Under the pieces are notes generated by a model, which made no database searches, was not told the DNA's origin, and worked only from the letters and a program-made list of their open reading frames with translations. A program made the position numbers and the translations under genes. A DNA stretch of 39,568 nucleotides from a virus: positions 1 through 39,568 of IMG/VR virus record IMGVR_UViG_3300050821_006249. One strand, written 5' to 3'. Shown in pieces: positions 20,228 through 25,192 of the stretch. The stretch's first letter is position 1. Each line of letters opens with the position of its first letter.

Positions 20228-20239
20228 TCGATTAATTAT

Positions 20240-20386
20240 GGAGCTATCGGCGTGGACAGTGACACGCGGGATGACTCTCAGCCGTATCGTGGGCTTCGAG
20301 TTAATCGTTGACTGCAAGTGAATCAACATATTATGTCAATGAAACAGGTAGCAGATACGAGTCAGTGCAATTCTGGCATAGCTCCA
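20240..20386 (+). ncRNA. tRNA-like folded element A
   Basis: 147 bases closed by a perfect 8-bp stem GGAGCTAT/ATAGCTCC followed by A, like an acceptor stem and discriminator. Next is hairpin GCGTG/CACGC with loop GACAGTGA (20250-20267), where a D arm would be. Just before the closing strand is hairpin GTCAG/CTGGC with loop TGCAATT (20361-20377), where a T arm would be. The middle 90 bases contain GTTGA/TCAAC and CGTATC/GATACG pairs but no anticodon arm that I can place. The loops recur in element C. Confidence 0.6.
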
Positions 20387-20457
20387 AAGAGTGCAGGGTT
20401 TAATTATACCCGTATTACCAGCCGCCGGTATGGTGCATAAAACCGGCAAAGAATCAT

Positions 20458-20530
20458 TGGCACGTAGCAAAGCGGTAATGCAGCACCCTGTTAAGGTGCT
20501 TATGCGTAGGTTCGAGTCCTACCGTGCCAG
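20458..20530 (+). tRNA. tRNA-Asn(GTT)
   Basis: Perfect cloverleaf of 73 bases: acceptor TGGCACG/CGTGCCA with discriminator G, anticodon stem GCACC/GGTGC with loop CTGTTAA (anticodon GTT), T arm GTAGG/CCTAC with loop TTCGAGT. CCA is not encoded. A hairpin GCCGGT/ACCGGC lies just upstream (20424-20447). It would serve the AAT/AAC codons, frequent in this AT-rich genome. Confidence 0.95.
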
Positions 20531-20542
20531 AATAAATTGAAA

Positions 20543-20625
20543 GGATGAGTGGGTGAGGGGTTAAAACCGGCAGACTGTAAATCTGTTCTCCGCGGAGTAC
20601 GCTAGTTCGAATCTAGCCTCATCCA
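20543..20625 (+). tRNA. tRNA-Tyr(GTA)
   Basis: Class II tRNA of 83 bases with acceptor GGATGAG/CTCATCC and discriminator A, anticodon stem CAGA/TCTG with loop CTGTAAA (anticodon GTA), a long variable arm around CTCCGCGGAG, and T arm GCTAG/CTAGC with loop TTCGAAT. CCA is not encoded. It follows tRNA-Asn after 12 bases, the shared spacer AATAAATTGAAA suggesting one transcript. Confidence 0.95.
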
Positions 20626-20744
20626 GAATAAATTATGGTAATAAGTGCGGTTCAATTCCGTATTAGCTACGTTCGAATCGTAGGCTCTGGGCATCGTCTT
20701 AGGGGTTTTAGCGAAATGGTATCCTGCTTATTACCAAGAATTAT

Positions 20745-20907
20745 GGTAACTGTAGCTCGAAAAGATAGGTGTCATAGTAGTCGCCTAATCGAAGAGTCTC
20801 TCATATTGCAGAAATGCGAGGTCTTGTGGCAAGGTTAGATAATGACCCCTTATCAGCCATACAAGGCTAACGAGAGAGGTTGGAGGTGCAATTCCTCTCA
20901 GTTACCG
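20745..20907 (+). ncRNA. tRNA-like folded element B
   Basis: 163 bases closed by 8-bp stem GGTAACTG/CAGTTACC. The closing strand is preceded by a hairpin with a TGCAATT loop (GAGG/CCTC, extendable to GAGAGG/CCTCTC by an alternative pairing). Inner helices include AGGTG/CGCCT (20767-20786) and CTTGT-GGC with GCC-AT-ACAAG. It lacks the GACAGTGA loop of elements A and C. Confidence 0.5.
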
Positions 20908-21049
20908 CGGAATATAGTTTATATAAACGTTTTGAGGATACGTATAATCCTCCCTGACGCCCTGACTATGAAAGTCCCGTAGAATTACGGAAACACCGCT
21001 TGATAGTTTTATGGCGCCGAAGAATATCAGGAAAAATATAAGCTATATA

Positions 21050-21155
21050 CCGATAGCAGCGCTGACAGTGAAGCCCGCAATATCGCGATATGTGGTCGTT
21101 GGATTGCCTGTCATAGGAAGAACAACGATAGTGAGTGCAATTCTCACCTATTGGT
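21050..21155 (+). ncRNA. tRNA-like folded element C
   Basis: 106 bases fold completely into a multibranch: closing stem CCGATAG/CTATTGG (one G-T), hairpin GCT/AGC with loop GACAGTGA (21061-21074), hairpin CCGC-ATAT/ATAT-GTGG (21075-21095), stem TCGTTG/CAACGA (21096-21128) with inner CC/GG, and hairpin GTGAG/CTCAC with loop TGCAATT (21131-21147). This is the outline of a class II tRNA, but the arm in the anticodon position has a CGCG tip and no 7-base loop. Confidence 0.6.
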
Positions 21156-21324
21156 AATTATTAACTTGAGTCATAGCAAGTATAGCCTATGAATAGCAGC
21201 GTAGCTAAGTTTCATCCTAGAAGATGATAGCGTGAATGAGGTGCGGTTTGACCATAAGCAAGACACCAAGGAATATGCATCAATGCAATGGCAGGCGAAA
21301 GCCGAGAATTTTGAGGTGATAAAA

Positions 21325-21432
21325 ATGTGCGAAGAAGATAATTATTTTTGGTATGGAATTATTTTTATAATAACGTTTTTATTATTTACAATAGCTGTAC
21401 TAGCAGTTTTATCTGCATTGTTTTTAAATTAA
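21325..21432 (+). CDS. Small membrane protein
   Basis: 35 residues: MCEEDNYFWYGIIFIITFLL and a continuing hydrophobic end, one span. GAGGTG lies 6-7 bases before the ATG at 21325. A longer frame from 21232 runs back into the structured RNA and has no ribosome site. Confidence 0.55.
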   Translation: MCEEDNYFWYGIIFIITFLLFTIAVLAVLSALFLN

Positions 21433-23684: not shown

Positions 23685-23966
23685 ATGAAAGATGAATTTA
23701 AAGAGTTAACAAAAAAATTAAATAGCAAGCTTGTAGAAACCACTGTTAATTTTATTAAAGAAAATGTTAAAGAAGATAAAGAAATATACTTAAATGATTT
23801 TCTAAATTTAATATTAAGCTCTCATATTTCCTCTATATATAATAATTTATTGCATTTAACAGAAATGTTTGAAGCTCCACAAGAACCTATTGATATTTTA
23901 ATGAATAAAATACTTTTCTCAATAGAAGATTTTGATCTTATTGAATATAAAGGAGATAAACATTAA
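23685..23966 (+). CDS. Small helical paralogue 4
   Basis: 93 residues (MKDEFKELTKKLNSKLVETT onward). Core YLNDFLNLILSSHISSIYNN and acidic end follow the same plan as paralogues 1-3, but it is the most divergent. AGAGGAAA precedes the ATG. Its stop overlaps the RtcB start as TAATG. Confidence 0.58.
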   Translation: MKDEFKELTKKLNSKLVETTVNFIKENVKEDKEIYLNDFLNLILSSHISSIYNNLLHLTEMFEAPQEPIDILMNKILFSIEDFDLIEYKGDKH

Positions 23967-25192
23967 TGCGCGTATTTGAAGGAAAAAATGTCCCAATAAA
24001 AGCTTGGATAGATTATGTTGATATTGAAGATCAAGCTCTTCAACAACTCGTTAATTTATCAAGTATGCCATTTATATATAAGCATGTTGCAGCGATGCCA
24101 GATGTTCACTGGGGAATGGGTGCTACTATCGGAAGCGTTATAGCTACTGAAAAAGCTATTATTCCTGCTGCGGTTGGTGTTGATATTGGTTGCGGCATGA
24201 TGGCTGTTAAAACACCTTTAAATGCTAATGATTTACCAGATAATCTTTTTGATATTCGATCAAAAATAGAAGCTGCCGTTCCTCACGGTAGAACTAATCA
24301 AGGTGGTGATGGTGATAGAGGTGCTTGGCATAATATACATCCATTAGGTGAATTAAGTTTTCTATTGATGAAAGAAGAATACGAATCAATAATAGAAAAA
24401 TATCCTTTATTAAAACCAAAGAAAAACCCTGCTCATCATTTAGGTACGCTTGGGACTGGTAATCATTTTATAGAAATATGTTTAGATCAAAATCAAGATG
24501 TATGGGTAATGCTTCATAGTGGAAGTAGAGGAATTGGTAATAAAATAGGAGTTTTTTTCATTAGTAAGGCAAAAGAAGAAATGCAAAAATACTATATAGA
24601 TAAACATATATCCGATATAGACTTATCTTATCTAGTAGAACATACAGAAATTTTTGATGATTATATAAAAGCTGTTAATTGGGCGCAAAAGTTTGCATTC
24701 GAAAATAGAGTTATAATGATGAGTAATATTATTGGGATTTTATCAGAAAGTTTTCCTGATAAAATTTTTGAATATCATACATTTGAAACAGCAATAAATT
24801 GTCATCACAACTATGTTGAGAAAGAAAGACACTTCGGTAAAAATGTATGGCTTACCCGTAAAGGTGCTGTTAGAGCCAGAAAAGATGATTTAGGTATTAT
24901 ACCTGGTTCCATGGGTGCAAAAAGCTTTATAGTTAGAGGTAAAGGAAATTTAGAAAGTTTTCATTCATGTTCTCATGGAGCGGGTCGTTCAATGGGTCGT
25001 AATGAAGCTAAAAAGCGTTTTACATTAGAAGATCATATAAAAGCCACAGAAGGCGTTGAATGCAGAAAAGATCAAGATGTTATTGATGAAACACCAATGG
25101 CTTATAAAGATATCGATAATGTAATGAAATCTCAAGAGGATTTAGTTGATATTATCTATACATTAAAGCAAGTTGTTTGTATAAAGGGGTAA
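23966..25192 (+). CDS. rtcB: RNA-splicing ligase RtcB
   Basis: 408 residues, exactly the length of E. coli RtcB. Joins 2',3'-cyclic phosphate (or 3'-phosphate) and 5'-OH RNA ends using GTP and Mn2+. Visible motifs: PDVHWGMG (45-52), VDIGCGM with metal-binding Cys76 (72-78), GTGNHFIE with His167, LHSGSRGIG with His184, CHHNYVE (279-285), IIPGSMG, and CSHGAGRSMGR whose His337 matches the guanylylated His of E. coli RtcB. No intein or gap. A plausible job is re-joining tRNAs cut by host anticodon nucleases. Confidence 0.93.
   Translation: MRVFEGKNVPIKAWIDYVDIEDQALQQLVNLSSMPFIYKHVAAMPDVHWGMGATIGSVIATEKAIIPAAVGVDIGCGMMAVKTPLNANDLPDNLFDIRSKIEAAVPHGRTNQGGDGDRGAWHNIHPLGELSFLLMKEEYESIIEKYPLLKPKKNPAHHLGTLGTGNHFIEICLDQNQDVWVMLHSGSRGIGNKIGVFFISKAKEEMQKYYIDKHISDIDLSYLVEHTEIFDDYIKAVNWAQKFAFENRVIMMSNIIGILSESFPDKIFEYHTFETAINCHHNYVEKERHFGKNVWLTRKGAVRARKDDLGIIPGSMGAKSFIVRGKGNLESFHSCSHGAGRSMGRNEAKKRFTLEDHIKATEGVECRKDQDVIDETPMAYKDIDNVMKSQEDLVDIIYTLKQVVCIKG

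Follow-up and report, generated by a model that had tools for sequence, protein, structure and literature searches.

A candidate family of tRNA-like RNAs with variable inserts in uncultured bacterial viruses

The DNA analysed here (the window) comprises the 39,568 nucleotides of IMG/VR virus record IMGVR_UViG_3300050821_006249. Positions 20230 to 21330 form a 1.1 kb RNA island with coding genes on either side, in which an ordinary tRNA-Asn (GTT, 20457-20531, plus strand) and an ordinary tRNA-Tyr (GTA, 20543-20625, plus strand) lie together with three tRNA-like elements, here called C, B and A, and a fourth acceptor-closed unit, all on the plus strand. In each of the three elements, 8-9 pairs formed a closing stem that resembles an acceptor. 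Element C (20240-20385) consists of an acceptor stem formed by GGAGCTAT (20240-20247) and ATAGCTCC (20378-20385), a D-arm (20250-20267, loop 20255-20262), an insert (20268-20360) and a T-arm (20361-20377, loop 20366-20372). It folded as the first-pass annotation had described (-52.8 kcal/mol, z -3.6), and its insert contains a candidate pseudoknot (20283-20359, plus strand) based on the direct complementarity of CGTATC (20283-20288) and GATACG (20354-20359); no close relative of this insert was found. Element B (20745-20906) has the acceptor GGTAACTG/CAGTTACC, a hairpin that enlarges its D-loop region and the T-arm GGAGG-TGCAATT-CCTCT, and the MFE of the region 20730-20915 gave a z of -2.6. 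Element A (21049-21155), with the acceptor ACCGATAG/CTATTGGT, a D-loop at 21064-21071, a 54 nt insert and a T-arm at 21131-21147 (loop 21136-21142), folded more weakly when taken alone (z -1.25).

The fourth unit (20636-20736) is closed by the 12 pairs of TGGTAATAAGTG/TGCTTATTACCA, has the ATTATGG leader in common and contains two T-arm-like hairpins. In the island, chance alone readily produced stems of at least seven pairs (31 observed, 20-34 after shuffling), so the support for this unit comes from the length of its 12-pair stem and from the leader. ARAGORN reported an overlapping tRNA-Leu at 20623-20692, where Rfam recognised no tRNA, and this call is probably a misreading of the fourth unit. 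Between B and A, ATATAGTTTATAT (from 20912) and ATATAAGCTATAT (to 21048) could form 13 complementary pairs, perhaps corresponding to another RNA.

The first-pass annotation had proposed that C and A carry identical loops on different stems. Both loops were found at the positions given, GACAGTGA at 20255-20262 in C and 21064-21071 in A, its only two copies in the window, and TGCAATT in both elements, while the stems were indeed GCGTG/CACGC and GTCAG/CTGGC in C and GCT/AGC and GTGAG/CTCAC in A. T54, C56 and A58 were kept, with G at position 55. The sequence GTGCAATTC, which contains TGCAATT, occurred in the window at 20365, 20886 and 21135 only; the copy at 20886 is part of element B, showing that the T-loop of C and A is also present in B. 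Loops of 7-8 bases were not rare by themselves (chance mean 16.7 for TGCAATT and 0.74 for GACAGTGA), whereas loops and stems taken together were: a descriptor combining acceptor, D-arm and T-arm scored 59 for C and 54 for A, the best of 300 dinucleotide shuffles of the island reaching 43.

The annotation had made its reading depend on the loop pair being more frequent in phages than chance would allow, and the reading held when this was examined in 2.9 million IMG/VR viral contigs. A scan with both loops matched 119 loci, and among these about 45 elements were clear. The arms were then searched separately in order to avoid circularity. The D-arm 18-mer GCGTGGACAGTGACACGC alone matched 79 viral loci. 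Nearly all of these continued downstream with a 5 bp T-arm whose loop resembled TGCAATT, and directly after it with bases complementary, as an acceptor, to those preceding the D-arm; the query contained neither this T-arm nor this acceptor. Conversely, the T-arm 18-mer AGCCGGTGCAATTCCGGC alone matched 69 loci, most of them with D-arm and acceptor, so that each arm recovered the other one together with a complementary acceptor. The descriptor retrieved 122 distinct elements and none from reversed or complement-only sequence, and a broader version gave 191 raw matches against one. Under the strict definition the family comprised 145 distinct elements, whose acceptors represented at least 86 sequences. 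All 145 had acceptor stem, D-arm and T-arm at tRNA spacing, with the anticodon arm replaced by an insert of 29-270 nt that usually differed from element to element. These elements make up a large and widespread class of predicted small RNAs in uncultured bacterial viruses, apparently undescribed.

In an alignment of 54 elements from which the insert had been removed (tRNA numbering applies to columns 1-22, through the last base of the D-loop), standard pairs occupied 99.4% of the cells and double-sided changes were found in 17 of 18 pairs. The covariation score was 0.768, compared with 0.175 after shuffling and 0.07-0.10 with slid partners, and the T-stem pair G53-C61 was invariant (54/54). 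As the descriptor demands acceptor pairing, the covariation of the acceptor is partly built in, and the counts on null sequence are the better guard. Secondary structure and covariation also gave an elbow and a coaxial acceptor/T stack of about 12-13 bp, a trait of RNase P and RNase Z substrates. The 3' register of the acceptor was ambiguous (7 or 8 pairs); CCA was encoded in only 19 of the 145 elements, with no clear relation to the CCA state of the tRNAs nearby. Judged from these alignments, the chassis of acceptor stem, D-arm, T-arm and elbow is almost certainly kept.

In the tRNA elbow, base 19 pairs with 56, and base 18 inserts into the T-loop, where it contacts base 55 (PMC4810234). Column 18 of the elements is the fourth base of the D-loop, that is, the second A of GACAGTGA, two places before its T, and column 19 is the G that follows this A. 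The D-loop GACAGTGA accompanied the TGC T-loop and GACGGTGA accompanied TTC. Since one element at locus L006 with GG at positions 18-19 had a TTC loop, we scanned for GG D-arms leaving the T-loop free. Among D-arm-seeded elements, A18 occurred with G55 in 59 and with U55 in two, and G18 with U55 in 26 and never with G55 (Fisher 4e-20, a value uncorrected for kinship that overstates independence because the elements are related). Across the 145 distinct elements, the 18 x 55 pair had the highest mutual information between D-loop and T-loop (0.575 bits, the next being 0.24), in agreement with the proposed selection on a tertiary contact between the two loops; A18/G55 was found in 110, G18/U55 in 27 and A18 with U55 in four. 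In contrast, the suggestion that G55 contacts the T of GACAGTGA did not survive: in 10 of 122 elements this T gave way to C or A while G55 stayed unchanged, and its mutual information with position 55 was 0.03 bits in the 145 elements. The comparison thus supports a D-loop/T-loop contact in which the base that covaries with G55 is this A and not the T, A18/G55 standing in for G18/U55, with G19-C56 as in tRNA.

The 18/55 link was strong, yet not strict. Two elements with nearly identical inserts (L014 with U55 and L193 with G55) both had A18, a GAAGGAA D-loop occurred with G55 at three loci, and both 18/55 forms were found within one phage contig at L006 and at L255. The 19-56 pair (columns 19 and 35) was standard in 54 of 54 rows, being almost always G19-C56 and A19-U56 in L130, L156 and L239, while two elements with A19 kept C56 (L240 and L241). 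At three further loci (L158, 7293; L159, 4757; L220, after 2050) inserted sequence enlarged the T-loop or the D-loop and the loop ends were kept, those of L158 and L159 being TG..AATT.

The inserts were 29 to about 270 nt long (median 85.5) and had no arm in common. Most were unrelated to one another and without common sequence, and a few recurred: insert family i (GGAAGCAAC..AGCTGAGCCTTCTCCCCAGTGGAT..TTCAGCAAAACTGGA) was carried on five different acceptors, and the acceptor GCAATCG bore many different inserts. In insert families iii, iv and vi, changes on both sides left the pairing of the predicted helices intact, no cell being broken, and conserved loops were present in inserts recurring across phages. 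The stability of 158 inserts did not significantly exceed that of controls (mean z -0.51 against -0.30, p 0.17), a weak test, since it used nested MFE folding, which ignores pseudoknots, and several inserts, that of C included, seem to be pseudoknotted.

An internal T-arm motif was found in 9 of 169 inserts and in none of the shuffled ones (examples are L264, L029, L031, L248 and L254); L264 (10186-10315) and L029 (2647-2771) also had a nested acceptor-like stem, that is, a tRNA-like structure within a tRNA-like structure. Three unrelated contigs (L125, L167 and L184) carried inserts of 240-270 nt with a common core around GGCTGGAAAACGCCATAGGCGTG, which had no match in Rfam.

No Rfam 15 family, GOLLD and ROOL included, matched the elements at gathering or permissive E-values, and the tRNA matches near them were ordinary adjoining tRNAs, such as the one at 2558-2640 of L029, which ends before the element. 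BLAST with chassis or insert queries found no element in 50,697 records of isolate phages; leads in MT837589, MT835496 and Sphingomonas phage Carli were read and contained no element. In a collection of bacterial genomes the exact 20-base D-arm occurred in six stretches, three of which were elements: one on a Legionella contig with portal and terminase genes, one on a Planctomycetota contig with phage-like genes and one on a Chloroflexi contig. The bacterial matches thus look viral, two of the three true ones lying on phage-like contigs, and a two-form D-arm pattern gave nothing further in samples of 143, 398 and 294 genomes. No account of the class turned up in the PMC papers searched; subscription papers and most preprints lay outside this search, so that an earlier description is possible.

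The elements were intergenic and lay on the same strand as the upstream gene in 40 of 52 cases and as the downstream gene in 42 of 52. A tRNA was found within 1 kb of 13 of 96 elements, always on the same strand. The flanking genes were varied, ordinary phage genes (portal, terminase, single-strand binding protein, methyltransferase, Tad2-like), and no partner gene common to the flanks was found. The window encodes an RtcB-type RNA ligase (23966-25192, phrog_1075) about 3 kb from the island, and an association with RtcB was rejected, as none was present in 50 element-bearing or 50 control records. Two or more matches were found in 21 of 164 loci, a few of these being nested readings or tRNAs. 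On two huge-phage contigs, units stood in rows (L289, 11067-11918; L239, 2193-3147) with a constant acceptor GGATCGG/CCGATCC and different D-loops and inserts. At L004, a gene 56% identical to the window's counterpart beside the island was followed about 1 kb downstream by an array of acceptor-closed units with GTTTATG spacers.

Like canonical tRNA (RF00005), the elements have a 7-8 bp acceptor, a two-base linker, a D-arm, a 5 bp T-stem, the invariant G53-C61, U54/C56/A58 and the 19-56 pair, and they sit sometimes inside tRNA clusters. Unlike tRNA, they have a 29-270 nt variable insert in the place of the anticodon arm (5 bp, 7 nt loop) and a 5 bp D-stem, most of them have A18/G55 and not G18/U55, and they fall below the RF00005 gathering cut-off. 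GOLLD and ROOL, structured ncRNAs associated with phages and often near tRNAs, resemble the elements in these respects but are far larger. The closest system is the engineered tRNA scaffold (PMC3753655), a man-made construct that retains acceptor stem, D-arm and T-arm and takes up a chosen RNA in the position of the anticodon arm, allowing this RNA to be expressed in E. coli in a protected form; the elements differ from it in being natural, viral and arrayed, with the elbow pair swapped in most. Viral tRNA-like structures and mascRNA/menRNA mimic tRNA to recruit RNase P or other tRNA enzymes (PMC4810234, PMC11693755), but none of them forms, as the elements do, a separate phage gene with a hypervariable insert.

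On balance, we favour reading A, B and C as members of a phage ncRNA family of natural tRNA scaffolds carrying structured hypervariable inserts. The sequence comparisons that point to it are the chassis, the covarying helices, the elbow, the tandem arrays, the gene orientation and the presence of one insert on different acceptors. The elbow is recognised by RNase P, RNase Z and the ribosomal L1 stalk (PMC4810234). Host tRNA-maturation enzymes would cut out and protect the units, RNase P and RNase Z reading the elbow, and CCA would be added or encoded at the 3' end; processing of this tRNA type is likely. Because the elements keep what RNase P, RNase Z and CCA-adding enzymes read and have replaced what translation needs, and because the laboratory scaffold is the closest parallel, we infer that the tRNA shape may serve to release and stabilise structured RNAs. 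Activity would reside in the insert, which would most likely act as a decoy for, or a regulator of, a variable host target, although such an effector role on a target that varies between hosts can be put forward only tentatively. The fact that the inserts are variable, arrayed and found in otherwise dissimilar phages may suggest host-specific targets, for example defence systems. A broader scheme is conceivable with similar reserve, namely modular RNA delivery in phages of many uncultured hosts, with arrays of tRNA-shaped cassettes of several classes, having acceptor-like stems and TTTATG leader spacers and matured by host enzymes, each of which would release a different RNA against host defence or RNA-binding proteins.

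The chassis itself could instead be the effector, acting as a decoy for a host tRNA-binding factor (RNase P, the ribosomal E-site/L1 stalk, or a tRNA-modifying or tRNA-cleaving defence enzyme), with the insert as a filler that acts sterically or against degradation. Conservation resides in the chassis, the 19-56 pair kept in every row belongs to the surface that RNase P, T-box and L1 stalk recognise, and the inserts are unlike in almost all elements. However, a filler would not need to recur with double-sided changes, as in families iii, iv and vi, or with conserved loops, and single arrays hold several units with different inserts, so we regard this alternative as unlikely. It is less likely still that the units punctuate processing, marking RNase P and RNase Z cuts between transcripts as mitochondrial tRNAs do: their intergenic position, the strand shared with neighbouring genes and the same-strand tRNAs nearby would agree with this, but a plain tRNA would suffice, with no need for long, variable, structured inserts or for consecutive units.

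tmRNA has a tRNA-like end with a long insert where the anticodon arm would be, and lacks a paired D-stem. The elements share this general layout, and their inserts might accordingly have a translation-related role of their own, but they keep a 5 bp paired D-stem and their inserts are hypervariable, without common sequence and mostly shorter. The tmRNA covariance model gave no significant match to the elements at permissive E-values, the sole trace being a 16.8-bit piece (E 0.3, gathering score 84) near the L281 element, which makes a tmRNA-like RNA very improbable. The idea that the elements are decaying phage tRNAs with random insertions could appeal to their occurrence among tRNAs and to the tRNA pieces (T-arm motif) in some inserts, but it is contradicted by the covariation; the constraint on helices, loops, elbow pairs and spacing and the double-sided changes within inserts leave it hardly any credibility.

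If the scaffold reading is right, the engineered tRNA scaffold would have an equivalent in nature, and the elements would form a phage RNA class of considerable size that is invisible to tRNA finders and Rfam. The replacement of G18/U55 by A18/G55 would be an experiment of nature on the D/T-loop contacts that the tRNA elbow requires, and the hypervariable inserts could be drawn on directly for candidate phage RNAs with possible targets among host functions.

A second RNA unit was also observed, with conserved ends TTTATGGCC[GA]ACGATACT ... GGGAAAATAGGCC[AG]CCA and a variable middle (L004, 3397-3458). It was present near elements at L061, L062, L066, L071, L087, L103, L124, L131, L138, L220 and L240 as well, in some loci 6 nt ahead of the tRNA-like element, and may be another class of CCA-ended cassette. 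Finally, acceptor-closed units ending in N-CCA followed by GTTTATG, without an evident T-arm, were found between the two elements of L079 (minus strand), at 3466-3516 of L004, upstream in L062 and L202, and upstream of the element in L200; among them is GCCAATAG..CTATTGGC-ACCA, a mini unit some 50 nt long.
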